Origin: a virus | DNA: 44,656 nucleotides | Virus record (IMG/VR): IMGVR_UViG_3300035661_000118 | Coordinates: 1 to 44,656 of that record | Reading direction: 5' to 3' (one strand) | Shown here: piece after piece, positions 15,921-44,656 of the stretch | Layout: the number at the start of each line of letters is the position of its first letter | How positions within the stretch are numbered: the first letter of the stretch is position 1 | Notes under the pieces: generated by a model | What the model was told of the DNA's origin: nothing | The model's database searches: none | What the model saw: the letters and a program-made list of their open reading frames with translations, nothing else | Program-made: the position numbers and the translations under genes

Positions 15921-16268
15921 TCACCACATACTCCTTCTGCTGTATAGTTCTGCCAATTCCTTGAATTCATGGCTGTCTTTTGGTATGATTCTGCTTTCAA
16001 GCTTCACCACACTGCTATTCCTGGCATAATCATCAATTTTTCTTTGATCTTCTGGGGCAATCAGCACCACCTTCTCCTTCTTTGGCTTTGGCTTAAACTG
16101 TTGGAGAGGTTCTGGCTTTTTGCTATACTTGCTGTGCCAATGCATGGTGCTGCTGCAATTGTGTGAACAACATCTTGCATTCTTGTAAAGTGGCTTAAAT
16201 TCCTTGGCACACTTTGGGTTGGCACAGATTCTTGGTTCAAGTTCTGTGGCTAGTGTTCTTCCCATCAT
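15921..16268 (-). CDS. Small zinc-finger-like protein
   Basis: About 115 residues with a compact cysteine cluster near the N-terminus: ICANPKCAKEF, then NARCCSHNCSS, giving CxxxxC and CCxxxC pairs that could hold one zinc ion. A Lys/Pro-rich linker (KPKPKKEKV) and a helical C-terminus (SHEFKELAELYSRRSMW) follow. ATG 16268 has AAGG 6-7 bases upstream; ATG 16286 is an alternative start. It overlaps the end of the MazG-like gene. A nucleic-acid-binding role is plausible, but no family is recognised. Confidence 0.65.
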   Translation of the reverse strand: MMGRTLATELEPRICANPKCAKEFKPLYKNARCCSHNCSSTMHWHSKYSKKPEPLQQFKPKPKKEKVVLIAPEDQRKIDDYARNSSVVKLESRIIPKDSHEFKELAELYSRRSMW

Positions 16269-16524
16269 ACAGCCTTCGTTTGTCATTTTTATCAATCACA
16301 AACAGCATGCCATCAACTACAGCATCAAAACCATACACCTCAATGTACTGGTGCAGCAGCTGATCAAGGGCATGCCTACAGTCCCACAGCTCTTCAAGCT
16401 GGCCAGCCACATCTTTGGTGGACAAGCTCTCAGCAAACTCATCAAACTCCTCTTTGACCTTGTTGAACTGGCACACATTTGTGGCTGGCACTTTTGGCAA
16501 CAGAAGCATCACATCACACCCCAT
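16237..16524 (-). CDS. MazG-like nucleotide pyrophosphohydrolase
   Basis: A 95-residue protein with the all-alpha NTP-PPase pattern: NKVKEEFDEFAES gives the first E-E-x-x-E helix and QLEELWDCRHALDQLL the E-x-x-D helix, the two halves of the Mg-binding site. A third helix follows (YGFDAVVDGML). Family members hydrolyse (d)NTPs to the monophosphate, which would feed the dTMP pathway encoded upstream or alter host alarmones. The start ATG 16524 overlaps the end of the transglycosylase gene. It is about the size of a single MazG domain. Confidence 0.72.
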   Translation of the reverse strand: MGCDVMLLLPKVPATNVCQFNKVKEEFDEFAESLSTKDVAGQLEELWDCRHALDQLLHQYIEVYGFDAVVDGMLFVIDKNDKRRLYDGKNTSHRT

Positions 16525-16855: not shown

Positions 16856-16965
16856 AGTGAATACCCACAATTAGGACAATAAGCACAACCACCCTGGTGA
16901 ACCAGTTTGGTGCCACAATCAGGGCAGTTTCCTGATTTTTTCAATGTGAATTTTTCTCCATCCAT
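16846..16965 (-). CDS. Tiny zinc-ribbon protein (39 residues)
   Basis: A short gene hidden in the junction between the polymerase and transglycosylase genes. ATG 16965 has AAAGGAG 8-9 bases upstream, the best ribosome site in this area. After MDGEKFTLKKSGN the protein is a single zinc ribbon: CPDCG, ten residues, then CAYCPNCGYSLC, with cysteines at residues 14, 17, 27, 30, 33 and 38. The same ribbon closes the C-terminus of class II (NrdJ-type) ribonucleotide reductases and some other enzymes, where it is a docking or electron-relay tail. Here it stands alone. No NrdJ gene is present. The start overlaps the last 47 bases of the polymerase gene. Confidence 0.78.
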   Translation of the reverse strand: MDGEKFTLKKSGNCPDCGTKLVHQGGCAYCPNCGYSLCQ

Positions 16966-19708
16966 TTTTGACAACTCCTTTAATGAGATAGTAATCACCA
17001 ACCTTGCCAGATTCAAGGATTGGTTTGCCCAACTTTTGGTATGAGTATCGGTCTATGGTACAAGTGATGCTGTCTGTGTCATCCTCCACCATCAAGTTGA
17101 GCCATAGGTTGTTGTTCTTGATCTCCCTGCCATTGCGTTTGGACAGCAGGGCATATTCATTCATATCTCTCAGGTTTTTCTCAACCAGTTTGGCTATGAA
17201 CACATATTCACCATCATCTTGAATCCAAGAGATGTACACAGGAGACTGTGATAGTATACCGTATTTTTCTGGATTGCGGTAGTAATCTCCATATCTAGTC
17301 TCACACTCAAACACATCATCCCAAGGCGTCACAGCATTTTGCAGCAACTTGATGTGCCCTGGCAGCAAGGGCTTGCCCTCTGATCTGCGCTTGATGATGT
17401 CTGCTGCTTTTGCTGGGCCTAGACCTTTGATGGCCACCAGGCCCCCAACCAGCCTGCCATTCTGTATGCTCCATTCGATCTGGCTGTGCTTGGGGTGCCA
17501 TGGGTCATATTCAAAACCTTCCTTCACCAGCTCCCTCAGCAACTTGATGGTGGCCTCTGGGCTCTTCTCATTGTTGAGACAAGCCAATGCAAACTCAAGA
17601 GGGTGGTGAGCTTTGAGGTACATGCACCAGTATGAAAGCAGAGCATAGCTGACTCCATGGCTCTTGTTGAATGCCCATGAACCAAAGGTCATTATGTTCT
17701 TCCACACCTTCTCTGCATCTGCCTCATTCATGCCATTCCTGCCAGCTCCAGCCTTAAATTTATCCCAGTATTGGTTGAAAAACTCTTCCCCCAAGCTCTT
17801 GGACATGGCCTTGCGTATAACAGTCGTTTCCTCCCAGCTAAATTCACCAACATTCTTCACAATGGCCATGACCTGCTCCTGGAACACAGTCACACCAAAT
17901 GTGTCCCTGGTGTATGGTTCTATGGCTGGGTGGTCATATACCACAGGTGCCCTGTTTGTTCTGCGCTCTATGAAGGTTGATGCACCACCACTGTTCAGTG
18001 GGCCAGGTCTGGCCAAGGATGTCAGGGCTGTTATGTCATCAAATGTCTCAATGGGCATCTGTTTGCTGAGGGATTGCAGAGCATAACCTTCAAACTGGAA
18101 GATGCCACTGAACTTTCTGTTGTTGATGATGTCATATGCAGCCTTGTCATCTGTTGGCACATCATACAGCTCTCTGGGCTGCTTGCCCAAGTACTTCATG
18201 CAATCACCAAGCACAGACAGGGTGCGCAGCCCAAGCACATCAATCTTCAGTAGGTTCAAGTCCTCTGCATCATGCTTATCAATCTGAGCCACATTGTCCT
18301 GTGCAATGACTGAGCAGCAATCCTTCACATCATGAGCACACACAATGATGCCAGCAGCATGTATCCCACTGTGCCTTGCGTGATCTTCAATCCTTGCCAC
18401 ATTCTTCATGGCAGGATACTTCTCTACAAATGCCTTGCCAACCTCCAGAGTCTCAAAGGTATCCAAGATGCAAAATGAGGCACGTGAGTCACCACCAGAC
18501 CGTTCAATGATGGCATCCTTCACATCTTTTGTTGCCTCAAATGGTATCTTGTATTTCTTGGCAGCCTCTCCAATGGCACTCTTGGCCTTGAGCCTGCTCA
18601 CTGTCCCAATGTGGGCCACATTCTCTTGGCCATACTTGCCTGCCAGATAATCTATGACACTCTGTCTCTGGTTATCTGGGAAGTCAAGGTCAATATCTGG
18701 GAGGTCTTTGCGGGTGATGTCAATGAAACGCTCAAACAACAACCCATATGGCATTGGGTCAACCTCTGTGATGAAGAGCAAGTAGCACACCAGTGAGCCT
18801 GCAGCAGAACCTCTTGCTGGGCCAACTAGCATGTGGTCTTTGGCCCACATACACAGGTCTGCCACCAGATAAAAATAGTCTTCAAATTCCTTGGCCTTGA
18901 TCAGTTCAAGCTCTCTCTGAAGTCTCTGCTCATACTCATCATTCCACCCAAGTTTGCGCATCTTGATGCCAGTTCTGCACATTGACTCAATGGATGGCAT
19001 GCCCTCAAAATGAACAGTCCTGCCAAGAGGCAGATCAAATGATTCAATCATGTCATTGATCTTGTGAGTGTTGTCTATGGCAACTTGACTCAGCCTTGGG
19101 ATTGCTGCCATCAGCTCCTGCTCCCCCAGCAAGTGTTGAGGAGTGGTCTTACGCTCCACAAAATCCGCCACAAGCTCATAGGCCACCCTATCTCCCATAG
19201 AAGGGAAGAAAACATCAGAGGTGGCCACAGCTGTGGCCAGGGTGCCAAAAATAATATTGTGCTTCCCAAACCCTGGGGACAATTCATGGAAAAGCACAGC
19301 TGGTTTGAGGTCTGGGGGTGGGTTGCTACCAGATAGCACCACAACATTGCTGGAAAAGGCATTGACCTGGGCCAGAGTCACACGCGGCACATAGTATCGC
19401 TGCTGAGTGGAAAGGCTGTTGAGTCTGTATATCTCCCTCAGCCCTTCCACATTTCTTGCCAGGGCAGTCATCACCCACTGAGACTTTGACTTGTCAAGTT
19501 CTCTCACCACATTGAATTGCATGCCAAAGATTGGCTTGATGCCTGCCTTTTTGCACAGCTTGTGGAATTGCACATGCCCCCAGGAGCTGTGCACATCAGT
19601 TATGGCCAGGGCCTCTTGCCCAAGCTCCTTGGCTCTATTTATGAGCAGCTGCAGTGGGCCAAAGGCTTTCTGGAAACTGTATTCAGTTTTTACCTTCAGG
19701 TTGATCAT
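16919..19708 (-). CDS. dnaE: DNA polymerase III alpha subunit-like replicase (DnaE)
   Basis: A 929-residue C-family polymerase, shorter than bacterial DnaE (about 1160). The N-terminal PHP domain is present, but its first metal site is changed: KVKTEYSF replaces HxHTEYS and ITDVHSSWG replaces LTDHGN. It is therefore probably inactive as a nuclease. The palm carries DLPDIDLDFPD with two catalytic Asp and LLKIDVLGLRTL with the third. RHSGIHAAGI, GIFQFEGYALQ, LARPGPL and FNKSHGVSYALLSY are all classical DnaE motifs. A helix-hairpin-helix (AIKGLGPAKA) and a C-terminal OB-like region (residues about 845-929) follow. Proofreading would come from the separate exonuclease encoded upstream. Confidence 0.95.
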   Translation of the reverse strand: MINLKVKTEYSFQKAFGPLQLLINRAKELGQEALAITDVHSSWGHVQFHKLCKKAGIKPIFGMQFNVVRELDKSKSQWVMTALARNVEGLREIYRLNSLSTQQRYYVPRVTLAQVNAFSSNVVVLSGSNPPPDLKPAVLFHELSPGFGKHNIIFGTLATAVATSDVFFPSMGDRVAYELVADFVERKTTPQHLLGEQELMAAIPRLSQVAIDNTHKINDMIESFDLPLGRTVHFEGMPSIESMCRTGIKMRKLGWNDEYEQRLQRELELIKAKEFEDYFYLVADLCMWAKDHMLVGPARGSAAGSLVCYLLFITEVDPMPYGLLFERFIDITRKDLPDIDLDFPDNQRQSVIDYLAGKYGQENVAHIGTVSRLKAKSAIGEAAKKYKIPFEATKDVKDAIIERSGGDSRASFCILDTFETLEVGKAFVEKYPAMKNVARIEDHARHSGIHAAGIIVCAHDVKDCCSVIAQDNVAQIDKHDAEDLNLLKIDVLGLRTLSVLGDCMKYLGKQPRELYDVPTDDKAAYDIINNRKFSGIFQFEGYALQSLSKQMPIETFDDITALTSLARPGPLNSGGASTFIERRTNRAPVVYDHPAIEPYTRDTFGVTVFQEQVMAIVKNVGEFSWEETTVIRKAMSKSLGEEFFNQYWDKFKAGAGRNGMNEADAEKVWKNIMTFGSWAFNKSHGVSYALLSYWCMYLKAHHPLEFALACLNNEKSPEATIKLLRELVKEGFEYDPWHPKHSQIEWSIQNGRLVGGLVAIKGLGPAKAADIIKRRSEGKPLLPGHIKLLQNAVTPWDDVFECETRYGDYYRNPEKYGILSQSPVYISWIQDDGEYVFIAKLVEKNLRDMNEYALLSKRNGREIKNNNLWLNLMVEDDTDSITCTIDRYSYQKLGKPILESGKVGDYYLIKGVVKNGWRKIHIEKIRKLP

Positions 19709-19914: not shown

Positions 19915-20027
19915 CCCTGCCTCCATAGTTCATATTCATTAGAACCCTCTGTAAATGGGTTGTCTTTGCGCTCCTTGCCACACTCCCAGTCATCCTGGCC
20001 TCTGCCAAATGCTAATCTAGCATCCAT
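19866..20027 (-). CDS. Rmf/CrpP-like small protein (53 residues)
   Basis: A tiny gene in the overlap between the exonuclease and the 67-residue gene. AGGAG lies 5 bases before ATG 20027. The sequence MDARLAFGRGQDDW, then CGKERKDNPF and GSNEYELWRQGWEH, has the pattern of ribosome modulation factor and CrpP-type proteins found in proteobacteria and their phages: a small basic protein with the G-x-x-x-x-x-NP(F/Y)-x-x-GS-x-(E)Y-x-x-W-x-x-GW core. Such proteins bind ribosomes (Rmf). The tail is a short repeat (MQEPKMQEPK). Overlaps on both sides are 16 and 49 bases. Confidence 0.78.
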   Translation of the reverse strand: MDARLAFGRGQDDWECGKERKDNPFTEGSNEYELWRQGWEHRQMQEPKMQEPK

Positions 20028-20566
20028 CCCATCTCCTTCCACAAGCCAGAGCGCAGAATCTCAACAAGTGATTCAACATCACCCATAGCCCTGTGCCAGT
20101 TCTGAATTTCTTTGCCTGTGTAAATTGAATAAAGCTCACCAAGCTTGAGCCGTTTGTTTTTCAGGTGCTGGCTGGCCTCAACTGTGCAAATGTGGATTGG
20201 TGGCCAAGGGAACTTGGTTACAAGCTCAAGCCTCTGCAGCTCCCCAGCAAGTATCCCAACATCAAACATCACATTGTGGGCTATCAGCCCATGAGCACCA
20301 AGGAAAAAGTGCTGGAGGGCTGGTATGTTGACTGGGAATGGCATGCTGCCAGCAAGGTCAGCATCTGTGATGCCTGTTGCCTTCACAATCTCTGGGGGCA
20401 GAGGTCCACCAGGATGGCACTTGAATTCAATCCGATCAAGCTCCACAAGCTCATCATTGAGCTTAATTGCTGCAAACTCAATGATCTTTGGCATCTGATC
20501 AAGTGGTGCTCCTTCAGGCAGCATCAGGCCTGTTGTTTCTGTGTCAAACACAATGAAGTTCTTCAT
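20012..20566 (-). CDS. DEDDh 3'-5' exonuclease (DnaQ-like proofreading subunit)
   Basis: About 184 residues. ATG 20566 follows GGAGG closely and gives MKNFIVFDTETTG; the frame opens eight codons earlier without a ribosome site. Exonuclease motif I is FDTETTG (Asp and Glu), motif II AHNVMFDVGIL (Asp), and motif III HRAMGDVESL (His and Asp), so all DEDDh residues are present. It would supply 3'-5' editing to the DnaE-type polymerase encoded four genes on. ATGITDADL is a common DnaQ feature. Confidence 0.93.
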   Translation of the reverse strand: MKNFIVFDTETTGLMLPEGAPLDQMPKIIEFAAIKLNDELVELDRIEFKCHPGGPLPPEIVKATGITDADLAGSMPFPVNIPALQHFFLGAHGLIAHNVMFDVGILAGELQRLELVTKFPWPPIHICTVEASQHLKNKRLKLGELYSIYTGKEIQNWHRAMGDVESLVEILRSGLWKEMGWMLD

Positions 20567-20591
20567 TTTTTCCTCCAATCCTAATGACATC

Positions 20592-21137
20592 TCACAGCAT
20601 CACCCTCTCAATGAGCTTCAGATCAAAGCCAAACATATCTCTGGTGTCAAATACCACATAGTGATACTTGCGCTTGCCAGCTATGGCAGGATTGCTGTGG
20701 CTGTGGGTCCACACCTCCTGAGCAATTGGCAACTTATTGTACAGCTGTTCCATGTGCTCAGGTGTGGCATGCAGGCCCATGTGTGAGAGGAATGCTGGGC
20801 CTGTGTAGCAGTTGGGATTGCGCTGCTGGTGCCAGTTTGGCCCTTGGTTGTACTTCAAAATCTCCAGTTCAAAGCCCAGCTGGTAGTTAAAGTGTAACTC
20901 AGCAACATTCTCAGCTTCAACCCCAAACACCTTGCCCTTGGCTACCACCTCATCATGGTGCCACTCATTGCAGCCAAAGATGGACAGCTGTTCAATGATC
21001 TGCTTGGGATTGCCAGAGGCAATGGCCACTTGCTCAATCAAGCCAAAGGGAGTGCCCACATTCCCAGCATCCATTGCCTGTAGAACTTCAATGACCTTGT
21101 CATCCACTATTCCTTGAATCAATTTAGTTAGGTACAT
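20592..21137 (-). CDS. VOC/glyoxalase-fold-like protein
   Basis: A 181-residue protein whose C-terminal 110 residues look like a vicinal-oxygen-chelate fold: AELHFNYQLGFELEILKY, then AFLSHMGLHATPEHMEQL and a final FGFDLKLIERV. The E-x-E, SHxGLH and LIE positions resemble VOC metal ligands. The N-terminal 60 residues (IVDDKVIEVLQAMDAGNVGTPFGLIEQVAIA) are helical with no known motif. The ribosome site AAAAGGAG precedes ATG 21137. It lies at the end of the nucleotide-metabolism cluster. The exact function is unknown, and the fold call is from pattern only. Confidence 0.6.
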   Translation of the reverse strand: MYLTKLIQGIVDDKVIEVLQAMDAGNVGTPFGLIEQVAIASGNPKQIIEQLSIFGCNEWHHDEVVAKGKVFGVEAENVAELHFNYQLGFELEILKYNQGPNWHQQRNPNCYTGPAFLSHMGLHATPEHMEQLYNKLPIAQEVWTHSHSNPAIAGKRKYHYVVFDTRDMFGFDLKLIERVML

Positions 21138-21154
21138 CAGCAGTCTCCTTTTGG

Positions 21155-21883
21155 TTATTTGCCATATGGCAGGATGGTGCCAGCCAAATACTTGTGCCTT
21201 TTCTTGTCTGCCAGCAGGTATGATATGAAGCCAGCCAGGCTTTCTGGGTCTGTCTCTTCTCCTGCTGGGAGGGACTGCAACTGATATTTGCGTGCAAATT
21301 CAATGTCCCAACCACGAGTTTCAACCACACGTTGGTCAATGTAATCTGACATCCCTGTGTTGGCCAGCCGATTGGGAGCAATCCCAAACACATCAATGTT
21401 GTGCCTTGGCTTCAGCTCCCTGGCCATCTGCAGGGTCATGATGTGGGCTGCTGCCTTGCTGGCATTGTAGGCCAATGAGGATGTCATTGGCATGTGAGCA
21501 GCATTGGAAACTATGTTAAGGATGGTGCCACCTGCCAGCTTCTCCTGCTTGATCAGCTCCCTGGTCACCAGGAAGATGGACTTGGCATTGGTGTCCATCA
21601 CAAGTTCCCAGTCATCCTCTGTGAAGTTTTCAATGAAGTCTATGCGATTGACCCCAGCATTGTTGATCAGCACATCCACCTTGCCCACTTTGCTGATGGA
21701 CTGCTCAACATCATTTGAAAAACCCACATCACACCGGAGCCATTGCACACGTGGATGCTCAACCTTTGGGCTTGACACATCAAGGTTGATGATCACATCA
21801 GCAGGGCTTTCAAACAGCAGGGCATTGATGATCTTCTCACCAAGGCCAGAACTGCCGCCAGTTACCAGGATTGTTCTGCTCAT
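21155..21883 (-). CDS. Short-chain dehydrogenase/reductase (SDR)
   Basis: A 242-residue classical SDR oxidoreductase. TGGSSGLG (residues 8-15) binds the dinucleotide, an Asp at the end of strand two (INLDVSS) suggests NAD(H) preference, and LINNAGVN is the structural motif. The catalytic Ser lies in LNIVSNAAH and YNASK gives the Tyr and Lys. All active-site residues are present, so an active enzyme is likely. The start overlaps the DUF1599 gene by ATGA. SDRs are unusual in phage genomes; the substrate may be a nucleotide sugar or modified nucleotide, but this is a guess from neighbours. Confidence 0.92.
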   Translation of the reverse strand: MSRTILVTGGSSGLGEKIINALLFESPADVIINLDVSSPKVEHPRVQWLRCDVGFSNDVEQSISKVGKVDVLINNAGVNRIDFIENFTEDDWELVMDTNAKSIFLVTRELIKQEKLAGGTILNIVSNAAHMPMTSSLAYNASKAAAHIMTLQMARELKPRHNIDVFGIAPNRLANTGMSDYIDQRVVETRGWDIEFARKYQLQSLPAGEETDPESLAGFISYLLADKKRHKYLAGTILPYGK

Positions 21884-22326
21884 TGTTGTTTCATCCTTTC
21901 TCCAAGCTCCTCCAGCATGAATGAGTAAACGCCATCATCATGGATGCTGTCCTGGTGGAAGATGCCTTGTTGAAAGGCATTGCAAAAACGGTTGAGCTTG
22001 ACCACCTTCAAATCAAGCAAATGGTACACACCAAACTTTGCTGGCGAGTCAAGAACCACAGGGGTGCTGTGGAAAAGGGCTGCCATGATTGAGCCATGCT
22101 CAAGGTAGCTGTCCCCATATGCCTTGTTGCGCTCCCTGAAGGTGCGTGCACCCTGCTCCATAAAGTCTGGGGCACGCAGCTGATCACCCCCAGCAGTTGG
22201 CCTGGGGTCTAGCTTGTTGACCTCTTCCACCACAGCTTTGATTCCTTCAAGCAATTCAGCCCAGCTGCAGTTGGCATCTGTGGTTGACTTGAGTTGGTCA
22301 ATTTTCTGTTTCAGTCCAGCAATCAT
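21880..22326 (-). CDS. DUF1599 / nucleotide modification associated domain 1 (Nmad1) protein
   Basis: About 148 residues. ATG 22326 follows AAAGGAG by 8 bases and overlaps the HAD stop; the frame itself opens earlier. The family signature is clear: ARTFRERNKAYGDSYLEHGSIM, then HLLDLKVVKLNRFCNAF and DSIHDDGVYSFMLEEL. Nmad1 domains were named because they occur with base-modification and thymidylate enzymes in phages. The helical fold and the paired acidic residues recall MazG-type hydrolases. Here it is placed between a HAD phosphatase and an SDR, with ThyX nearby. Confidence 0.82.
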   Translation of the reverse strand: MIAGLKQKIDQLKSTTDANCSWAELLEGIKAVVEEVNKLDPRPTAGGDQLRAPDFMEQGARTFRERNKAYGDSYLEHGSIMAALFHSTPVVLDSPAKFGVYHLLDLKVVKLNRFCNAFQQGIFHQDSIHDDGVYSFMLEELGERMKQQ

Positions 22327-22775
22327 CAATAGACTCCTTTCTGTGCCTGTAGGCATATCAACCCTTCTCCTCTCCACATCTCCACAAGCTCATCACGATC
22401 TTCAATGGCCAGCGCAAACTGGTGGGCTGGGTAATTCCTGGTGAGCTCATCCAATGCCCTGCGCTTGAAGTCCACATCCCTCACACCAATATCATCCTGT
22501 GTTCTTGTGATCAACTTGCTGAATGGCAGGCCATGCTTGACCAGCCATTCTTTTGTAATTTCTCTGTATTCTTGGTTGCGTCCTGTTACCACAAATATCA
22601 GCCAACCCTGAGCCCAAAGACCTCTCACAACCTGTATCACAGGCACAATTGGTTTATCCAGATGGCAGAGTTGCTGGAAGGCATACCAATCTTTGGCCAA
22701 AGCAAATTCCTTGCGGTGATTAAAGTCACTGATGGTGCCATCAACATCAATTATCGCAGCAAGATTGTTCATCAT
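22326..22775 (-). CDS. HAD phosphatase, polynucleotide kinase 3'-phosphatase type
   Basis: A 149-residue HAD-family enzyme similar to the phosphatase domain of T4 polynucleotide kinase. Motif I is IIDVDGTISD (both Asp), motif II FVVTGRNQEYREIT, and motif IV FALAIEDRDELVEMW. PFSKLITRTQDDIGVRDVDFKRRALDEL has the pattern of phage Pnkp phosphatases. It could remove 3'-phosphates from nucleic acid or dephosphorylate nucleotides. There is no kinase (P-loop) domain in this gene. The start overlaps the ThyX stop, with GGAGG upstream of ATG 22775. Confidence 0.87.
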   Translation of the reverse strand: MMNNLAAIIDVDGTISDFNHRKEFALAKDWYAFQQLCHLDKPIVPVIQVVRGLWAQGWLIFVVTGRNQEYREITKEWLVKHGLPFSKLITRTQDDIGVRDVDFKRRALDELTRNYPAHQFALAIEDRDELVEMWRGEGLICLQAQKGVY

Positions 22776-23551
22776 ACCTTGCCTCCATCTGTGGTTGCTG
22801 CTGTGTCCTTGAAGGCAACTGGGCTGGACTCATGGCGCAAGCTCCAGAACTTCTTCTTGATTGCTGCTTTTTGATCATCAAGGTTGGCAACCAGTGGTGC
22901 TATTGGGCACTCAGTGTAGCGTGGGAAGCAACAGGTGCCATGCCTTGCACAGTAGACATCAAGAATTGGCTCTGCCCAGGGGTGAACCCCAACCACCAAA
23001 TCTCGCATGGCCCTGAACACATCCTGGTACTCGCCTTGGGTGCGTGTGCATAGCCTCAGCTCTGCCATGTGAGACAGTGTGCGCAGGTTGAGCTTGGAAA
23101 TGATGCTGGTGTGAATGTTGGTTGGTATTACACCTCTGGCATCCTGTGGGGCAACTCCAGCCTCTCTCAGCAATGAATAGCCATGAAGGCTGTTTCTGAC
23201 AATGCCATCAAACAGTTCATCAGCCCCAGTTCCTTCCAGCTTGGGAGGAGTGAGCCAAGTGGAGTCAGAAAGGTCAACCACACGCTGTGCCTCTTGGGCA
23301 TAGCTGGCAGTTCTGGTGCGCACAAACTGATGGGTGAATGCTCTGGTCACACCAGTGATTTCAAATGTGTAGTCTGCAAATTCCCAGCTGCTCTGGATGG
23401 TATCCATCATGTATGACCAATGCTCAAGCTTCTTTTCAAGTGGCCAGAACTTGATGGTATCAAGTGTATCCTCGCCACGCAGCCTGGTGTTCTTGGTGTA
23501 TATCAACAGTTCCAGGGCATCCCTGGTGTAATCAAGCAGTTTGACTTCCAT
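22772..23551 (-). CDS. thyX: Flavin-dependent thymidylate synthase
   Basis: A 259-residue ThyX: makes dTMP from dUMP with methylene-folate and FAD. The signature stretch is HQFVRTRTASYAQEAQR, the phage form of the ThyX motif RHRxxSxxxxSQR. Further family features are ITGVTRAFTHQ, ARGVIPTNIHTSIISKLNLRTLSHMAELR and a C-terminal Cys-rich segment (GTCCFPRYTECP). ATG 23551 has AAAAGGAG upstream. It forms an overlapping unit with a flavoprotein gene before it and the HAD gene after it. It may make ordinary dTMP or, in a modifying phage, an altered pyrimidine; the sequence alone does not decide. Confidence 0.93.
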   Translation of the reverse strand: MEVKLLDYTRDALELLIYTKNTRLRGEDTLDTIKFWPLEKKLEHWSYMMDTIQSSWEFADYTFEITGVTRAFTHQFVRTRTASYAQEAQRVVDLSDSTWLTPPKLEGTGADELFDGIVRNSLHGYSLLREAGVAPQDARGVIPTNIHTSIISKLNLRTLSHMAELRLCTRTQGEYQDVFRAMRDLVVGVHPWAEPILDVYCARHGTCCFPRYTECPIAPLVANLDDQKAAIKKKFWSLRHESSPVAFKDTAATTDGGKV

Positions 23552-24449
23552 AAGTGATCTCCTTTTTTATGTCATACTTGGTCTTGCCAAGCATTTGTCT
23601 GATTTTGAAAATATCCTTGAATACATCATCCAACAGTATGTTGCGCCAGCAGGCAAACCTGCCAAGGGACCAAATGTTGTGCTCAGATGACAAGTAGTAC
23701 AAGAACTCTTTGCGGTGCTTGTCATCAAGTGGCACAATTTTGCCCATCTTCTGCCATCCAGCAAACTCAACCTCATACTCCTCCATCACCCTTTCAAGGC
23801 CAAATGCAGATATGACATCTTTGACCTCTGTGGTACCCAATTCAGATATGGACTCAATGATCAAAGTGTCTGCTGTGATGCTGGCCCTATAAACAGGAGT
23901 TTCATCACCAGGAAAATAGATGGTTTGGTAGACATTCATCCCAGCAACCTTCATCCTGGTTACATGGATTGGCCAATGCTTTGTTTCAGTCTGAATGTCA
24001 TATCCAACCAGCCTGGCCATTTCAATGATGGGTATTGTGGATAGGATAGGCCTGTGCTCAAAATTGGCCAGGCTGGTCAAAGAGATGCCCAGCTGTGTGC
24101 GATTTGACACCTGGTTGAACAGGTTTTGCTGAAAGTTGCTGGGGGCTATCCACCGCACATCAGGCTCAAGGTTGCTGATGCTGCGTTTTTGTGGCACTCC
24201 TGCCACCTTTATGCTATATTTGTTGAGAAGCCTTGGGCTTGGTGCAACATCTCTGCCACCCTCCCAGATGGACTTGTGTACTGTGACTTGCTTGAACTCA
24301 ATTCCAACATACTCCCCAATCTGTGGTGACCTGAAACGGAGCAGGGCTTGGTGCCCTGCTCCAATCTCAGTCTTGGCTTCCAGAATGGTTGCATCAGTGA
24401 AGATGCAGGCTGCCAAGCAGCCTGCCATCCCTGCTCCAAGGATGACCAT
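23532..24449 (-). CDS. FAD-dependent oxidoreductase
   Basis: About 305 residues. ATG 24449 is two bases after the previous stop, with GAGGTGG upstream, and gives MVILGAGMAGCLAA, a classical Rossmann FAD motif at the very N-terminus (GxGxxG), then ILEAKTEIG with the ribose-binding Glu. The later part (LLRFRSPQIGEY, ELGTTEVKDVISAFG, SLGRFACWRNILLDDVFKD) has no motif that I can assign to a specific enzyme, although SLGRFA resembles an FAD-contacting strand. It overlaps ThyX by 20 bases, so the two are probably co-translated. Flavoproteins next to thymidylate enzymes are known in phages with modified thymine, which is why this gene is of interest. Confidence 0.83.
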   Translation of the reverse strand: MVILGAGMAGCLAACIFTDATILEAKTEIGAGHQALLRFRSPQIGEYVGIEFKQVTVHKSIWEGGRDVAPSPRLLNKYSIKVAGVPQKRSISNLEPDVRWIAPSNFQQNLFNQVSNRTQLGISLTSLANFEHRPILSTIPIIEMARLVGYDIQTETKHWPIHVTRMKVAGMNVYQTIYFPGDETPVYRASITADTLIIESISELGTTEVKDVISAFGLERVMEEYEVEFAGWQKMGKIVPLDDKHRKEFLYYLSSEHNIWSLGRFACWRNILLDDVFKDIFKIRQMLGKTKYDIKKEITYGSQTA

Positions 24450-31547: not shown

Positions 31548-32294
31548 TTAGAAGTTGCCATCATCTGCAGCAGGGGTTGCAGACACTGTGCCTGATCTGA
31601 CCATTTCATGGAACTGCTTTGCAGCCTCATAAACCGAGACTGTGGATACCTGGCCAGAGTGCTCAATCTTCCAGCCAAACCATGAGCCATCATCATTGCT
31701 CTCTGGGACTGTGGTTAGTTTGAACTGCTGGGAGAACATTGGGGCAACCTGACCATTTTTCAGCTTGATGTTTTGCATCATGCTCATCCACTTTTTGCTC
31801 TTCTTGATCTGGGTGCTGCTCATGCTGATCAATACTGGCATCACTCCACCACCAGACAGCAGCAGGCAATAATGGCTGCGAGTGTCATCAATGATGTTGC
31901 CATCAGCACCAACCATCTTGTTCTTGTCATTGCGGGTGGCACTCTGCAGGGCCAGCTCACCTTCTGCCACACCAAGCTCACCCTTGTAGCCACCACGGTT
32001 GGGTGCCCACAGCAAGAATGACCGCTTGTATGCACATGGGACAACAACCACCCCATCCTCACCCTTGATCACCTCACCAGTAATTGTGTTGTAGAAGTCA
32101 CCCTCTTCAGCACCTTTGATATATTCAGCTTCAGACTTCTTCACCTGGGGGCTGCCACTCTGGAGGATGCGCAAGAATGGAATTGCATAACTCTGGGCAT
32201 CAGCTCCTTCAAACCCAACTCCAGCATCAGCCTCCAAGTCCAGCATTGCAGGCACACCAACCTCTTCTTTTTTCACCAGATCATTTTTAGCCAT
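31548..32294 (-). CDS. Probable single-strand DNA-binding protein
   Basis: A 248-residue acidic protein placed between recombination/helicase genes and the primase. It has a long ordered core (YAIPFLRILQSGSPQVKKSEAEYI, GDFYNTITGEVI, VVPCAYKRSFLLWAPNRGG, HYCLLLSGGGVMPVLISMSSTQIKKSKKWMS) and a short acidic tail ending in DDGNF. An acidic tail with a terminal aromatic residue is typical for phage SSBs such as T7 gp2.5. The fold is not proven; function is inferred from tail, size and neighbours. GGAG lies upstream of ATG 32294. Confidence 0.65.
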   Translation of the reverse strand: MAKNDLVKKEEVGVPAMLDLEADAGVGFEGADAQSYAIPFLRILQSGSPQVKKSEAEYIKGAEEGDFYNTITGEVIKGEDGVVVVPCAYKRSFLLWAPNRGGYKGELGVAEGELALQSATRNDKNKMVGADGNIIDDTRSHYCLLLSGGGVMPVLISMSSTQIKKSKKWMSMMQNIKLKNGQVAPMFSQQFKLTTVPESNDDGSWFGWKIEHSGQVSTVSVYEAAKQFHEMVRSGTVSATPAADDGNF

Positions 32295-36072: not shown

Positions 36073-38112
36073 TCAGTACACCACCATAAGTACACCAGTA
36101 CTTGTACGATATACATCACCAGCAACCTTACCATCTGCCAGTGCTGATGCATTATCAGCATACACAGATAGCCCGGATAGTTTTGCACCTTTCAACATAT
36201 CAACTCTACTGTTGAGCACATTAGGAGCATCAGTGTCAGTTTGGTAAATCCCGTACTTTGTAGTTACGCCTGAACCTTGCACCAGCAGAGATTGATTCAG
36301 CAAAATCCCATACAATGTTCCAATATTCGTAGTGGCACCATTAAGTATATTGCTAAACACTCTAATACCCGCAGCCGTTGATACTGCGGCATCTCCGGGC
36401 TGTATTGTGAAGTTGCCAGCGTATAAATTTGTTATGGTGCTAGCTGCTCTGGTGCTTTGCCCTGCTGTTGCAGTGGCACCAAATTGTGTTGTTACAGTTG
36501 CTCCTGCTTTGTTGTTATAAGCATTAGCCAATACTCCTATAGCTGTAGTTACTGTTGCTGTACCTGTCGCTCCAGCTTGGTAGTTAACCTGCCCTTGACA
36601 ACCAACCAGTATATTAGGAGCACCATTATAAATGCTTGCAAAGAAACCACCCGCAGTCTGGTTGGTGGTGCTTGATGCAGTTGCGCTGTTCCAGTACAAC
36701 GAGCCTATAATAGAGTAATTAGTAGCTACAGTGGCCCCTGCTGTAGTACCATTGATTTCAAGGTCAGCGCGTAAACTTTGTACGCCTTGCGTGCTATTAC
36801 CTGCGTCTGTATTAAGTACTGTAATTGTGCGATTATTATATGTAGTACCTGAAGTAACTGCTTGTAGAGTAGCGCAAGATAGTTGATTAACTGTAGTGGT
36901 TGAAGCCAACTGACTAGCCACAAGCGCAGGAGCATCTCCAATGTTGAGTTTAGCGTAGTTGTTAGTTGCAGTGGAAAGCATTAACTTGCTATTGAACAAA
37001 TTAGGAGCATCAGTGTCAATTTGACAAATACCGTACTTTGTACCTACACCTGAGCCTTGCGGCAGTGCAGTTTGATCCAAATAAATCCCATACAGCGTCC
37101 CAATATTTGTGGTGGCACCACTAAGTACATTGCCAGTCACTTTAATACCTTCAGATGATACTACTGCTGCATCCCCAGGCTGTACTGTGAAATTACCAGC
37201 ACACAAATATGTTATAGTGTTGGCTGCTCTTGTGGTTTGCCCTACCCTTACATCAATTCCGTATTGTACTGTTGTAACTGCCCCTACTTTGTTGGTATAA
37301 GAGGTAGCTACTACTCCTGTAGCTGTCCCAAGTGTTGCTGTACCTGTCGCTCCAGCTTGGTATATAGCCTGCCCTTGACAACCAACTATTGCGTTAGGAG
37401 CACCATTGTAAATGTTTGCAAAGAAGTTACCTGTGATTTGATTAGCAGTGCTTGTTGTAGTTGCACTGTTCCAGTTTAATTGACATTGAATAGCATTGCA
37501 AGCAGCTACAGTGGCACCTGCTGTAGTGCCATTGATTTCAAGGTCAGCACGTAAACTTTGCACGCTTTGTGTACTATTACCTGCATCTGTATTAAGTACC
37601 GTAACTGTGCGATTGTTATATGTAGTCCCCGAAGTAACTGCTTGTAGAGTGGCACAAGATAGCTGATTAACTGTAGTGGTTGAAGTCATCGGACCATTCA
37701 AAAGCACAGGAGCGTCACCAATGTTGAGTTTGGCATAGTTATTGGTTGATGTGGAAAGCATGAGCTTACCACTTACAACATTGCCTATAAGAACATCACC
37801 AATGCCATCTATTCTGATACGCTCCACACCACCTGTAGCAATGCCTAAAGTATCAGTTCCTATCTGGTAAAAGCCAGTGTCGGTGTCTGCTGAGAATGAA
37901 ATAGAAGGAGCTGCTGCTGTGCCTGATGAGGCTAATATTGGATCAGTATAGGTCTTTACTCCTGATATGGTTTGGTTTCCAGTAAGTGTCATAAAAAATG
38001 ACTTGATTGTTGACCAAAGAATATTTTTATTCAAAAGACCATCTCTCAGCAGCATCCTTGAATTGTCTGATGGTGTTGTTGTTTCATCAAAATTATAGTA
38101 TTCTTTACCCAT
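36073..38112 (-). CDS. Tail fibre protein with duplicated 260-residue module
   Basis: A 679-residue fibre. ATG 38112 overlaps the previous stop (TAATG) and follows GGAGG by 5 bases, so I prefer it to the ATG at 38142. After an N-terminal part (MGKEYYNFDETTTPSDNSRML, LTGNQTISGVKTYTDP) come two consecutive, clearly homologous modules, each 780 bases (37770-36991 and 36990-36211). They begin KLMLST and contain NNYAKLNIGDAP, TLQAVTSGTTYNNRT and ADLEINGTTAGATVA. The Gly/Thr/Asn-rich, beta-rich sequence suits a trimeric fibre. A short C-terminus (GKVAGDVYRTSTGVLMVVY) ends it. No chaperone domain is seen. Confidence 0.82.
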   Translation of the reverse strand: MGKEYYNFDETTTPSDNSRMLLRDGLLNKNILWSTIKSFFMTLTGNQTISGVKTYTDPILASSGTAAAPSISFSADTDTGFYQIGTDTLGIATGGVERIRIDGIGDVLIGNVVSGKLMLSTSTNNYAKLNIGDAPVLLNGPMTSTTTVNQLSCATLQAVTSGTTYNNRTVTVLNTDAGNSTQSVQSLRADLEINGTTAGATVAACNAIQCQLNWNSATTTSTANQITGNFFANIYNGAPNAIVGCQGQAIYQAGATGTATLGTATGVVATSYTNKVGAVTTVQYGIDVRVGQTTRAANTITYLCAGNFTVQPGDAAVVSSEGIKVTGNVLSGATTNIGTLYGIYLDQTALPQGSGVGTKYGICQIDTDAPNLFNSKLMLSTATNNYAKLNIGDAPALVASQLASTTTVNQLSCATLQAVTSGTTYNNRTITVLNTDAGNSTQGVQSLRADLEINGTTAGATVATNYSIIGSLYWNSATASSTTNQTAGGFFASIYNGAPNILVGCQGQVNYQAGATGTATVTTAIGVLANAYNNKAGATVTTQFGATATAGQSTRAASTITNLYAGNFTIQPGDAAVSTAAGIRVFSNILNGATTNIGTLYGILLNQSLLVQGSGVTTKYGIYQTDTDAPNVLNSRVDMLKGAKLSGLSVYADNASALADGKVAGDVYRTSTGVLMVVY
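36211..37770. repeat. 780-bp tandem duplication in the tail-fibre gene
   Basis: Two copies at an exact 780-base offset (for example TTAGGAGCATCAGTGTCA at 36221 and 37001, and GTGGAAAGCA at 36971 and 37751). Protein-level identity is high at the N-terminal part of each module and lower in the middle, so the duplication is not recent. Confidence 0.85.
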
Positions 38113-38927
38113 TACACCACCTCCAGAAGTTGAATTGGCCATTGGTGAGCACCATAATATGGATATGTCAGTGGGCTCAAGCTCTCAGCAGTGGCCAAAA
38201 AAGACTCTAGCAACATAGCCTTTGGCAATGCTGCAGCATCAGAGATGAATAGCATTTCATCTGTGGTTGTCAAAGTTTTGCTCAATATCAAAGCCTGGTA
38301 CTTGTCTTCATCAGTCAAGGCATCAAATGTAGCATGCATTGATCTGCGTGGGATTCTCTTCTCACTCCATTTTACCCCACCAAGACTCTCTTCTATCAAA
38401 TCCCTTGGCACATAACCAAGGCTAGAACCATAGTTCAAGCCAACTGATGGCTCAAAGTTAGCATCACCAAGCCACAATCTGCCAAGCTGGACATACCCAT
38501 TTGGGTTGGAGGTGTCTGTGATCTCAATTTTCCAATATTGGGCTGTCTTGCTGGATGAGAAGAGGCCAATCCATGAATTTGGGTACTTGGATGCATCATC
38601 TGTGGTGAAGTTGCTCTGTGGCCACACATTCACAGCTCCTGTGTCAGCTCCTGTGACCATGCTGGAATAGCTTGAATCAGAATAACCTCTGATGCGCACA
38701 GTCCCAGCAAAGCTAATGTTGTGATTGAGCAAGGCAAAACACCGGATGGCCTTGGCAGAGCCAAGATTGACTTGAATAAGTGTGGATGATGCCAAAGCAT
38801 TTGTGCTCCTGGCCACTTTTGATAACAGCTGCTGGGTAAGATTGCTGAGGGGCAGAGAAGATTGCCAGGAGCCACCAGAAAGTGTCCCAGACAAAGTCAG
38901 ATCAGGATATGAGAATATAGCAGCCAT
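38112..38927 (-). CDS. Tail-associated protein with galactose-binding-like domain
   Basis: A 271-residue protein from ATG 38927; the frame is open 19 codons upstream, but that part overlaps the tail-tip gene and lacks a ribosome site, whereas GGGGG lies before 38927. The N-terminal 160 residues look like a beta-sandwich of the discoidin/galactose-binding type (TLIQVNLGSAKAIRCFALLNHNISFAGTVRIRGY, then YWKIEITDTSNPNGYVQLGRLWLGD). It may bind host glycans or form part of the tail tip. The gene lies between the tail-tip protein and the fibre. Confidence 0.75.
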   Translation of the reverse strand: MAAIFSYPDLTLSGTLSGGSWQSSLPLSNLTQQLLSKVARSTNALASSTLIQVNLGSAKAIRCFALLNHNISFAGTVRIRGYSDSSYSSMVTGADTGAVNVWPQSNFTTDDASKYPNSWIGLFSSSKTAQYWKIEITDTSNPNGYVQLGRLWLGDANFEPSVGLNYGSSLGYVPRDLIEESLGGVKWSEKRIPRRSMHATFDALTDEDKYQALILSKTLTTTDEMLFISDAAALPKAMLLESFLATAESLSPLTYPYYGAHQWPIQLLEVV

Positions 38928-38928
38928 G

Positions 38929-41457
38929 TTACCCCCAAAGTTCCAGGTTGATGATGCGGGTTGAGTGATCTGATTCCACACCAATAATTTTCATCGGGCG
39001 GCCTGAATCATAGCCATAGCGTGGATATTTGACAGTTACTGTGCGGCCTAGGCTGGTGAGCTGGTTTGCATAATTGTTAGCATCATCACCATTATCATTT
39101 TCTAACAGCTTTAAGGTGCTGTATTCACTGCTATTTTCAGTAAATACAAATATGGAATTATTATATAAAATAGCTAATTTTGCTGTGGTATTAGCCAGCA
39201 ATGCATCAGGCAGCATCACAGATTTGGTTTTCCACCCTTCATTTACATTATCTAAATTAAAATATCTCATTGATAATTGTTCATCTGGAGTTCCATTAGA
39301 CCCACCAATTAGATAAGCAATATTATTTCTTAAAACAAAACCTGACAGTATAGCATAAGAGTTTACTGGTGGCAGCACCTCCCAGCTTGAGGTTAATGCA
39401 TTGGTTGGTATACGAAGTGTTGGAGCCTTATATTCAGCTGTACCATTTGTTCCACCAACAACATATATATAACCACCATATACAAAACTAGAGTGACCAT
39501 ATCTAGGTTCTGGTAAATCACTTATTGCAGATTCATTTTCAATAAAACCATTAATATCTATTCTCACTGTCTTCGTAGATGTAGGAAGGCCACCAATTAC
39601 ATATATAAAATTGTCTATAGCAACACAGGAGGCCCAGTATAAATTTATGCCTAAATAATTATTAACCAACATGCCCCCATATTGGTAGCCTGCAGATGCA
39701 TTGTTCATATCAAGATGCCACATCATTGTACTTGAAATATAGCTGGGAGGTCCAGCAGTATACCCATAAATAACATAATGAATGTTACCAATCAAACAGT
39801 GACAAGCTGGTGAACCATTGATGGCAAAACCTGACACATACTCTGGTGGAGAATTTGGTTTTCCTAAATCAATTCTATACAAACCAGAGTCTTTATAATT
39901 CCAGCTATACAGAGTTTTTACAAAATAAGCGTAATGATCATAAACAAATATGAACTGAGTTCCAGCCACTTCAGTAACATATTCAGTGTCCCATATACCA
40001 TCAGGTGGGAATTTTATAGCATGCATAGGCACCTTTACATTCAGCCGATCACGCCGTACCTTACGCAGTGACAGCAATCGTGCAGCCTCTGTATTGGCAT
40101 CATTCAGTGTGTCAATTGTTGTTTGCACATTTATTTCTGGGGACAACAGATGCTTGATTTGCACACTGGTATCTGTTGCACTGGTCCTGATGTATTCCAT
40201 GCCAAGAAGATTGCGCCGGTCTGTGCTAAGCTGCTGTCCATCATCCTTTTCAAATAGCAACTGGTTTTGAGAAATTGACCCAGCAAGTCCAGATGTTTGG
40301 ACTGTCCAGTTTTTGCTAAAATCAATATTGATTTTGTAGGATGGAACACCCTTGCTGCTATCTGCTGTGGCAGTACGATCAAGGCTTAGTATTTCATCCT
40401 CAGTCAGTGTCATAAGCGACTGATTTGCATCTGGCTGTGTTAGCTGATTGCTCCAGAACAGTCCAGAGTTATCAAATCCCCACCATGCCCCAACTGATGC
40501 ACAAAGGCTGTCAAGTATGGCAGTAACATCAACTGAATTAGGACCAGTGTAATACCCAACTACATACGGGGCTTGTTTATCCAGATTGATTATGGATTGT
40601 TCGACAATCTGATCAGCTCCCAGCTTTTCAAGCACAATTTGCTTGATGATCTGCCCAGCAGTACAGTTTGCAGCTGTGGCACCTTGCACAGCATCTACTG
40701 TGATGGTGCCAGCTGGACTACTCCCCAACCTAAAACACCCACCAGCCAGCCACACTCGATATTCTCCAGCATTTGGTGCATTGGCTTCCATATCTGCCTG
40801 ATCAGTGTAGGCTGTTGCCCCTGCTGTTAGCATTACCCCATTGTCATAAACAGCTGTAATAGAGGCTAGGGCATTGTCAGCCACCTGATAAATAAGCTTT
40901 GAGGTGTTAACCATTACTGGTGATACATTGTTGCATTTCCCAAACAAGCGTGGTTTGGGCTTGTCTCTGAGTTCTGATGTGCCTTCAATGCCTGCTGGAA
41001 GTAAGTTGGCCCCTGTGTAAAATGTGGATTGAAATGGCACTTGCAATTCAACAGTGCGATCTTTGAGCCTGAGAGTAACGCGGTTCCATGACACTTCGCA
41101 CTGCTCAACAGTTCCAGTTATCACAGTTACAAACTCAGATAATGCATTGCCAGCATAACCCTGCTTGACTACACAACGCCGCCCATCAAATCCATAATCA
41201 ACAAATGAGTCAAGTCCACCATCAGTATTGATAAGGACAATCTCACCATAACCACCAGTACTGCTGCCACTAGTGGCTCCAGGGCTAAACATATCCTGGC
41301 GGTATAGCCCTGGATGCTCTACACGCGGCTCATAGTGCATATTTGCTGGTGTATCTGTTGGTGTGGTGGTATATCCCACCCCTGTGCAGAATCTGAAAGT
41401 CTCTTCTGTGCTCCCAGTGTAGGCTGTGGCCTCTACTAAATAGATTATTTCATTCAT
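38929..41457 (-). CDS. Tail-tip protein with an inserted kelch-type propeller
   Basis: An 842-residue protein. ATG 41457 overlaps the tape measure stop. Residues 1-480 look like a distal tail/baseplate hub protein (RVEHPGLYRQDMFSPG, GEIVLINTDGGLDSFVDYGFDGRRC, APYVVGYYTGPNSVDVTAILDSL). The C-terminal 50 residues continue the same fold (LGRTVTVKYPRYGYDSGRPMKIIGV). Between them, residues about 480-790 hold kelch-like repeats: GNIHYVIYGY, NFIYVIGGLPT, EPRYGHSSFVYGGYIYVVGGTNG and NNIAYLIGGSNG. Kelch propellers often bind proteins or glycans, so this insert may be the receptor-binding head. DNA of the insert is more AT-rich than its flanks, suggesting acquisition. Confidence 0.8.
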   Translation of the reverse strand: MNEIIYLVEATAYTGSTEETFRFCTGVGYTTTPTDTPANMHYEPRVEHPGLYRQDMFSPGATSGSSTGGYGEIVLINTDGGLDSFVDYGFDGRRCVVKQGYAGNALSEFVTVITGTVEQCEVSWNRVTLRLKDRTVELQVPFQSTFYTGANLLPAGIEGTSELRDKPKPRLFGKCNNVSPVMVNTSKLIYQVADNALASITAVYDNGVMLTAGATAYTDQADMEANAPNAGEYRVWLAGGCFRLGSSPAGTITVDAVQGATAANCTAGQIIKQIVLEKLGADQIVEQSIINLDKQAPYVVGYYTGPNSVDVTAILDSLCASVGAWWGFDNSGLFWSNQLTQPDANQSLMTLTEDEILSLDRTATADSSKGVPSYKINIDFSKNWTVQTSGLAGSISQNQLLFEKDDGQQLSTDRRNLLGMEYIRTSATDTSVQIKHLLSPEINVQTTIDTLNDANTEAARLLSLRKVRRDRLNVKVPMHAIKFPPDGIWDTEYVTEVAGTQFIFVYDHYAYFVKTLYSWNYKDSGLYRIDLGKPNSPPEYVSGFAINGSPACHCLIGNIHYVIYGYTAGPPSYISSTMMWHLDMNNASAGYQYGGMLVNNYLGINLYWASCVAIDNFIYVIGGLPTSTKTVRIDINGFIENESAISDLPEPRYGHSSFVYGGYIYVVGGTNGTAEYKAPTLRIPTNALTSSWEVLPPVNSYAILSGFVLRNNIAYLIGGSNGTPDEQLSMRYFNLDNVNEGWKTKSVMLPDALLANTTAKLAILYNNSIFVFTENSSEYSTLKLLENDNGDDANNYANQLTSLGRTVTVKYPRYGYDSGRPMKIIGVESDHSTRIINLELWG

Positions 41458-44400: not shown

Positions 44401-44656
44401 AACTTATCCTGCTGGGAAAGTTTTTCTGCTTCAGCATTGGCTTCTTTCAATCCAACAGTCAAGGCATTGACACCAACTATCAGAACATCATTGAACACAC
44501 CACCAAGAGTCACCTTGAGGTTGTCAGCATAACGCTTCATGGATGTTAGCTGCTTGCCTGCTGTGCCCATAGCAGCCTCATATGCCCCAGCAATATCCTT
44601 GCCACGCTCAAGCACAGCATTCATCCTGGCTTGTGACCTCTCAGTCTCAGTCAGTG
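41454..44656 (-). CDS. Tail tape measure protein, C-terminal part (runs off the right edge)
   Basis: This is the remainder of the tape measure gene, in frame to the window edge. It overlaps the left-edge copy at 43668-44656 and ends at TGA 41454-41456. It contains long helical stretches rich in Gln/Ala/Glu, then a Thr/Asn-rich tandem repeat region (about 41960-42415), and a C-terminal domain with GHSIFGEAGPEAAVPLPDGRTIPV, the Gly/Pro-rich segment typical of the end of siphovirus tape measures. The coiled tail (ELRAAVRLLQAGFSQL) follows. Joined across the overlap with the left part it makes 1261 residues. Confidence 0.9.
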   Translation of the reverse strand, partial: LTETERSQARMNAVLERGKDIAGAYEAAMGTAGKQLTSMKRYADNLKVTLGGVFNDVLIVGVNALTVGLKEANAEAEKLSQQDKLAEAGKELVMMLAVIADGLSIVWSLLKTIAFVGVSGFTQLYYAAEAFSHAVIGDFKGAKNSLTDMVAAGKAATEAVADEWSKPTRFQDAAKAMYAERDANKALEESKRKQLETQQMANGKIAAAAAAADNLTLIVEKNRNEWAKIVVSQLESTGEYEKAATEAIRLNQLTKEYKTLKSAATGSEEAAAALRAQELLEQQQLLAAKRKLLQMDTDHQATMIRIERSKLSALGYDDVAIQLMTGKLEAANQEAELANQIATEINPKLKAQLQEQLEAQRVVNGLVQEEVELRNEVADAQKKVAAYNDLIKMAQAAGEDAKLVTSLATQVAYDAKRLELTQQITKANQSGQEVVSNITSQTLQQLENLWAQKDASAANLAKLREVLGVQQEITAESNKKSNNDLIDEYNANINITRTKDEQYQYYKDIQSGFERLNALESWGATWFDYIQNQAKVYTQQYEKEQAEKSAAEAAKAMSEKIAKAASDISTAAIDLARSGQDMAKSLRDVASNLRSARTNLAGSSTSILPPEEQLALARTEFLNTAAAAQTTGDVKLYDQLPELARTFLELSKTYNASGTGFVSDFNTVQSILAESANAADSQASSAEVIVSLLQQQTNLLTNINAALGSGGATAGLLSSLYTVNNQINSAIGTANATLTIGNDTASAINTNTANTALHAGYINTNTANTATHAGGINENTGTTATHAGYINTNTANTATQAGGINTNTANTASYTSGINENTGYINTNTANTASYTGGINENTGYINTNTANTATHTGGINENTGYINTNTANTASYTNYINTNTANTATHAGGINVNTSSGGTLAWWLSSVNTQATNTASYTSRTRDVLNGSLMASQSAGRVSGVVDTYAYKPNSTTQIDHVTSTYSYYAKGGIADDPTGHSIFGEAGPEAAVPLPDGRTIPVTLYGAADNRESETVEELKKANAELRAAVRLLQAGFSQLVDNTGRQARSLNGIENKARLAANQ
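41960..42415. repeat. Tandem INTNTANTA / INENTG repeats in the tape measure gene
   Basis: The encoded protein has eight copies of INTNTANTA and four of INENTG, spaced by 11 or 18 residues, with variable linkers such as THAGG, SYTGG and ATHAGY. The DNA shows the same recurrent words (for example GCAGTATTGGCAGTGTTGG on the plus strand). Such repeats can change copy number by slippage. Confidence 0.9.
43668..44656. repeat. Terminal imperfect direct repeat, right copy
   Basis: Matches 1-989 without indels at an offset of 43,667; about 94 percent identical by hand count. The two copies encode different alleles of tape measure residues 196-524, with substitutions concentrated at about residues 278-345. 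Confidence 0.9.

Follow-up and report, generated by a model that had tools for sequence, protein, structure and literature searches.

Pre-replicative replacement by 5-hydroxymethyluracil, as in SPO1 and SP8, requires a synthase that modifies dUMP together with enzymes that remove dTMP and dTTP. Thymidine hypermodification in phages ViI, M6, phiW-14 and SP10 (Lee, Weigele and colleagues) employs a thymidylate-synthase-like enzyme and accessory enzymes encoded near replication genes, and gives virion DNA that resists restriction. Here we describe a six-gene cassette that shares these features of arrangement, located in a 44,656-base stretch of viral DNA (IMG/VR record IMGVR_UViG_3300035661_000118, hereafter the window) from a tailed phage with recognisable terminase, portal, capsid and tail genes. 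The cassette encodes a flavoprotein, a divergent ThyX-family protein, a HAD phosphatase, an Nmad/MazG-like domain protein, a short-chain dehydrogenase/reductase (SDR) and a VOC-fold protein. Whereas the synthase of SPO1 and SP8 is of the ThyA type, that of the cassette is of the ThyX type, and its constant pairing with a flavoprotein resembling UDP-galactopyranose mutase (UGM) sets the cassette apart from the ViI, M6, phiW-14 and SP10 pathways. A PHROGs scan of 40 open reading frames from the window named neither a 5-hydroxymethyluracil DNA kinase nor a pyrophosphorylase-like transferase, although most PHROGs families carry no function and the contig might lack part of the genome.

We find the cassette to be a real and conserved unit that is nearly restricted to viruses. 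We consider it probable that it constitutes a pre-replicative pathway to a modified pyrimidine deoxynucleotide, most likely thymine-derived, from which the phage DnaE builds a restriction-resistant genome. More tentatively, and at somewhat less than even chance, we propose that the modification is an undescribed one of thymine (or of uracil C5), carried out on nucleotides by a ThyX lacking its signature histidine and a virus-specific UGM-like flavoprotein, with optional tailoring by the SDR and VOC proteins, shared by hundreds of phage isolates, Pseudomonas therapy phages among them, and paralleled in actinophages. The initial annotation of the window had suggested a modification cluster unlike the kinase/pyrophosphorylase route. 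This core idea finds good support in the conserved linkage, the divergent ThyX, the nearly virus-only flavoprotein and published restriction-resistance, while its details concerning the ThyX methyl group and DUF1599 are not.

Conservation of the cassette in distant phages

The gene order flavoprotein-ThyX-HAD-Nmad-SDR-VOC-exonuclease-DnaE recurs in Wifcevirus of E. coli, Myosmarvirus of Serratia and Carpasinavirus of Xanthomonas, and in many viruses from metagenomes, with proteins about 40% identical. It is kept in full in Xanthomonas phage XcP1, Serratia WR01, E. coli Bas99, Luteibacter Pluto, Aeromonas Gekk3-15, Pantoea Kyle and Erwinia TropicalSun, some of these phages having small extra genes interspersed. 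Pbunavirus 14-1, Salmonella PCSE1, Vibrio phages and Cronobacter Ss1 have the core but lack SDR and VOC, as does Rhizobium Y65, where the genes are more spread out. A similarity search at the DNA level returned short ThyX fragments only. In IMG/VR, a single flavoprotein sequence gave no match and an alignment gave 494 relatives, from which 80 loci, near-copies included, were retained. Linkage was counted over the 57 loci in which 4.5 kb or more of sequence lies beyond the flavoprotein: ThyX follows in 56, HAD in 47, the Nmad-like domain in 48, the exonuclease in 55 and the polymerase in 54.

Each of these enzyme superfamilies is widespread by itself, and unrelated metabolic genes might on that account have come together by chance. 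However, distantly related phages of Xanthomonas, Serratia, E. coli, Pantoea, Luteibacter and Aeromonas share the order at about 40% identity; the grouping is therefore more than chance, as the co-occurrence counts also indicate, and we reject this explanation, refuted by the conserved linkage, as having a negligible probability. In the window itself, all six genes placed by the initial annotation at 20592-24449 are present as open reading frames in the order it gave and on the minus strand (Table 1). The junctions overlap at four of five positions, in keeping with its description: by 20 nt between flavoprotein and ThyX, 4 nt between ThyX and HAD, 52 nt between HAD and the Nmad-like gene (31 nt if the latter starts at the ATG at 22356) and 4 nt between the Nmad-like gene and SDR, followed by a gap of 17 nt before VOC.

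The divergent ThyX and its flavoprotein partner

The window ThyX is recognised by the Pfam Thy1 model at 122.1 bits (curated cut-off 24.8) and scores 84.0 bits with the NCBIfam equivalog TIGR02170, below the cut-off of 87.9. Its motif RTRTASYAQEAQRV replaces RHRxxSYNExSxRY, giving RTR in place of the RHR seen in the solved ThyX proteins compared. The positions that we take to be Ser88 and Arg147 (Thermotoga numbering, placed by alignment) are also changed in the cassette ThyX, and the window protein retains equivalents of Arg78, Arg80, Arg90 and Arg174 (T. maritima numbering). As the signature residue is altered, it is doubtful that the cassette ThyX simply makes the thymine methyl group, as had been assumed. 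The histidine is missing (RTR, RSR or RNR) from 86 of the 88 readable ThyX copies linked to the flavoprotein; RHR is retained only at loci L012 and L087, and a larger tree set contained one further RHR copy. The L012 and L087 proteins, both placed inside the non-His clade, have regained (or kept) RHR despite the presence of the flavoprotein.

When phage ThyX genes were instead sampled by motif, and the flavoprotein scored where at least 1.2 kb of upstream sequence was available, it adjoined 43 of 44 RTR-type genes and none of 56 RHR-type genes. Downstream, HAD accompanied 32/34 RTR-type versus 2/35 RHR-type genes, and the Nmad-like domain 33/34 versus 1/35. The ThyX tree requires only four motif changes and gathers the non-His proteins mainly in one clade; the association thus reflects linkage rather than many independent events, and a Fisher test of flavoprotein presence by ThyX type (p about 1e-27) was not used as independent evidence.

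The flavoprotein matches phrog_4828 only (E 4e-75) and reaches the cut-off of no family in Pfam or NCBIfam. Its AlphaFold model, built from an alignment of 51 sequences, has a mean predicted local distance difference test score (pLDDT) of 91.3, and its predicted fold is that of UGM: 297 of 305 residues align with the UGM structure 4dsh (Z 22.2, 3.3 Å), ahead of protoporphyrinogen oxidase (Z 18.5) and monoamine oxidase (Z about 16.7). Recognition of UGM fails at the sequence level, the best UGM match of the flavoprotein profile among PDB sequences having an E of 1.1. A weak hidden Markov model alignment pairs phage Y178 and R188, both invariant among the aligned flavoproteins, with Tyr317 and Arg327 of the Aspergillus fumigatus enzyme, and puts Asn at the position of Tyr453 in the window protein and most relatives; the Aspergillus GRFGSWR matches GRFAxWR of the phage protein. 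Tyr317, Arg327 and Tyr453 are, we presume, the UGM contacts that hold the substrate diphosphate. The flavoprotein resembles UGM from Aspergillus and Trypanosoma in predicted fold, in putative Tyr317/Arg327 equivalents and in a GRFxxWR motif, but differs in length (305 versus about 500 residues), in the Asn at Tyr453 and in being partnered by ThyX rather than by sugar genes. It is encoded in 359 of 50,697 phage records, 291 of them from Pseudomonas phages, and in cells by two contigs only, both metagenome-assembled, among about 85,000 bacterial and archaeal genomes. The family is almost confined to viruses.

The main competing explanation is ordinary dTMP supply, in which the variant ThyX still makes dTMP, the flavoprotein delivers electrons to it or handles folate for it, HAD and Nmad keep the nucleotide pool clean, and SDR and VOC serve host metabolism. 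The clearly recognised Thy1 domain, the four retained arginines, the adjoining DnaE and exonuclease genes and the commonness of thymidylate synthases in phages would all suit a supply role. We nevertheless regard dTMP supply with a helper flavoprotein as unlikely, since not one of the 56 RHR-type phage ThyX genes sampled has such a partner, the flavoprotein is nearly absent from cells, and restriction-resistance and the locked SDR-VOC pair would be left unexplained.

Accessory enzymes and a parallel gene set

The HAD protein scores 74.9 bits with HAD_PNKP (cut-off 27.6) and carries IDVDGT as its DxD nucleophile motif, in agreement with the T4 Pnkp-type phosphatase originally named. The label Nmad1 (DUF1599, PF07659) fared less well: the window protein does not match that Pfam family, and only 1/52 of its relatives did (E 0.11), while DUF6378 matched 39/52 (best E 9e-6). 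DUF1599 was accordingly dropped as the name of this third domain, and DUF6378 is its nearest Pfam family. HAD and the Nmad-like domain are fused in 18 metagenomic loci and separate in 39. In Cronobacter phage Ss1 (L004, 7561-8238) the fusion partner of HAD is DUF3310 and not the Nmad-like domain; this swap may reveal the role of the second domain. In Halorubrum tailed virus HRTV-27 (L014, 5894-7609) an Nmad-like protein lies near an annotated phosphoheptose isomerase gene, with no flavoprotein or ThyX nearby. The MazG-like gene proposed downstream of the cassette, at 16237-16524 of the window, gave a weak signal (PRA-PH E 0.035; phrog_5164 E 4e-5).

For the SDR, the earlier assignment is supported by a clear adh_short match (123.7 bits, cut-off 26.6) together with the TGxxxGxG and YxxxK motifs. 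Searches of Pfam, PHROGs and NCBIfam left the VOC protein unmatched, but its confident AlphaFold model (pLDDT 90.7) predicts the VOC fold that had been suggested, closest to the putative methylmalonyl-CoA epimerase 3gm5 (Z 15.1, 134 residues aligned, 2.3 Å) and then to glyoxalases and epimerases (Z about 11). Sequence alignment points to Gln36, Glu90, Glu92, His119, His123 and His147 as conserved residues of a putative metal site, where Lys174 stands in a position usually held by Glu. Of the 80 metagenomic loci, 34 have SDR together with VOC, 44 have neither and 2 have SDR alone. At two loci (L020 and L021) the pair lies together upstream of the flavoprotein, on its other side, which shows the two genes moving as one unit. 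Among phage records, SDR matches from Listeria, Enterococcus and 'Bacteriophage sp.' entries (around 25-33% identity) were left out as probable bacterial contigs. The SDR, VOC and FAD genes are thus not scattered independently in related phages; such scattering would, by the terms of the initial annotation, have refuted its proposal.

A parallel set occurs in the actinophages Butterscotch, Genamy16, Gibson, Madi, Krampus and Ajin, whose flavoprotein belongs to another family (phrog_8720) and has WxR and GRYGxW-like motifs. In all six genomes it lies near DnaE and a non-His ThyX (RQR, RSR or RTR). A HAD-type phosphatase follows in four, that of Butterscotch being an NT5C deoxynucleotidase; three of the six (Butterscotch, Genamy16 and Ajin) encode an SDR, and Ajin has VOC and Nmad as well. 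The phrog_4828-type and phrog_8720 profiles match only locally, around the GR motif (probability 79%), and we therefore treat the two families as similar and not as one. Such parallel sets extend over Mycobacterium, Gordonia, Microbacterium and Streptomyces phages (L013/L097, 27770-31083; L343, 8992-17198; L347, 12010-21949), sometimes with a small S-adenosylmethionine-dependent methyltransferase.

Elsewhere in the window, a protein of the Pam3 gp34-like family is encoded at 31548-32294 (E 1e-72), and Pbunavirus JG024 also has one adjoining its replication genes. Two long open reading frames, at 41454-44624 (1056 aa) and 36073-38142 (689 aa), have no PHROGs match.

Table 1. Genes of the cassette and its constant neighbours in the window
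Feature	Position	Strand	Details
Flavoprotein (FLAV)	23532-24449	minus	ATG at 24449; phrog_4828; GxGxxG motif for flavin adenine dinucleotide (FAD); predicted UDP-galactopyranose-mutase-like fold
Divergent ThyX-family protein	22772-23551	minus	Pfam Thy1 E 3e-35
HAD phosphatase, HAD_PNKP family	22326-22775	minus	E 9e-21; DVDGT motif intact
Nmad/MazG-like domain protein	21880-22377	minus	C-terminal part of phrog_4889 E 7e-14; nearest Pfam family DUF6378
Short-chain dehydrogenase/reductase (SDR)	21155-21883	minus	Pfam E 9e-36; TGxxxGxG and YxxxK
VOC-fold protein	20592-21137	minus	AlphaFold model; predicted methylmalonyl-CoA epimerase/glyoxalase-like fold
DnaQ-type 3'-5' exonuclease	20012-20590	minus	Constant neighbour downstream of cassette
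DnaE-type DNA polymerase III alpha	16919-19708	minus	Constant neighbour downstream of cassette

Restriction phenotypes and a candidate pathway

Two groups of phages that carry the cassette, and that can be grown on laboratory strains, have published restriction phenotypes. Wifcevirus was reported to be restriction-resistant, with no known cause given by the authors (PMC11990801); Bas99 encodes all six functions and no annotated methyltransferase. In the same study Bas98-101 were sensitive to EcoP1_I and resistant to another type III restriction-modification system for which sites are about as numerous, hinting that protection depends on sequence. Virion DNA of JG024 was uncut by ScaI, NdeI and BsaI, which its authors guessed to be due to methylation (PMC10913387); the 36 kb that we examined contain 1, 8 and 3 sites, respectively. 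JG024 encodes the flavoprotein, ThyX and HAD-Nmad, and no DNA methyltransferase was found by annotation or by Pfam scans of ten larger unknown proteins, the first 30 kb not having been read. According to the literature, yeast-made JG024 DNA yielded phage in restriction-deleted hosts alone, while the virion infects both wild types. Neither PMC11990801 nor PMC10913387 ties resistance to the cassette genes; the JG024 and Wifcevirus data are in line with a modification that protects against a subset of enzymes. Papers on vB_Eco4M-7 and on a sewage phage collection held no restriction data, and digest data for K8 were set aside, its 93 kb genome not fitting a Pbunavirus.

The enzymes might instead have a target other than the phage genome (NAD, tRNA, a virion glycan or a signal nucleotide of the host, for example), the DNA being resistant from another cause. 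UGM, which the flavoprotein resembles, is a sugar-nucleotide enzyme; the HAD and pyrophosphatase-like domains could destroy defence signals; and methylation was, after all, the guess of the JG024 authors. The cassette, however, stands constantly beside ThyX, DnaQ and DnaE across phage morphologies and hosts, and no methyltransferase is annotated in the part of JG024 read or in Bas99, so that we find a target outside the genome quite improbable.

Several points weigh against the proposed modification pathway. First, the histidine is present in three flavoprotein-linked ThyX copies, and the association between ThyX type and flavoprotein goes back to a single old lineage in which the partnership has been stable, rather than to many independent origins. 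Second, JG024 DNA is cut by XbaI (PMC10913387) and SacII (PMC3008698), and the literature describes a Pbunavirus mapped with HindIII, EcoRI or XbaI, which makes a bulky replacement of all thymines unlikely in these phages. Third, the yeast-DNA effect is not specific, because deletion of restriction-modification also helped the comparison phage DMS3. Fourth, a synthetic Wifcevirus has been reported to be assembled in vitro (PMC11074155), suggesting that the modification may not be essential. Lastly, no nucleoside analysis of virion DNA was found in the literature searched.

From the observed gene content, order and linkage, the predicted folds and the motif changes, we infer a pathway to a modified deoxynucleotide in which the steps and their order, the altered base and the attached group are proposals. 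The non-His ThyX would add a one-carbon unit from methylene-tetrahydrofolate to C5 of dUMP, its product being not simply dTMP, or being passed on. The UGM-like flavoprotein, which keeps two putative diphosphate-contact residues, may then act on the nucleotide made by ThyX or attach a group to it. The HAD phosphatase and the Nmad/MazG-like domain, often one polypeptide, could clear ordinary dTMP and dTTP or faulty intermediates, and SDR and VOC, where present, would finish the attached group by reduction and epimerisation or isomerisation, before the modified nucleotide is incorporated by the neighbouring exonuclease and polymerase.

A chemical precedent for the first two steps comes from tRNA, where MnmEG and TrmFO use FAD and methylene-tetrahydrofolate at uracil C5, and MnmEG shows that this chemistry can build more than a methyl group (PMC9626948). 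By this analogy the two steps appear chemically reasonable, although MnmEG and TrmFO act on another substrate and belong to other protein families than the cassette enzymes. As to the size of the group, plain 5-hydroxymethyldeoxyuridine DNA of SP8 resists only about 8% of enzymes, and its NdeI resistance came after phosphorylation (literature). Taken with the NdeI resistance of JG024, this would point to a bulkier group than hydroxymethyl, provided that thymine is the base affected.

Such a pathway, if confirmed, would supply a cause for the restriction-resistance of Wifcevirus (PMC11990801) and of JG024 (PMC10913387), the latter a Pbunavirus and thus a member of a group among the Pseudomonas phages most used in personalised therapy (PMC11990801). 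It would also give functions to the hypothetical families phrog_4828 and phrog_4889, might yield new nucleotide-modifying enzymes, and would extend DNA hypermodification by a route based on ThyX.

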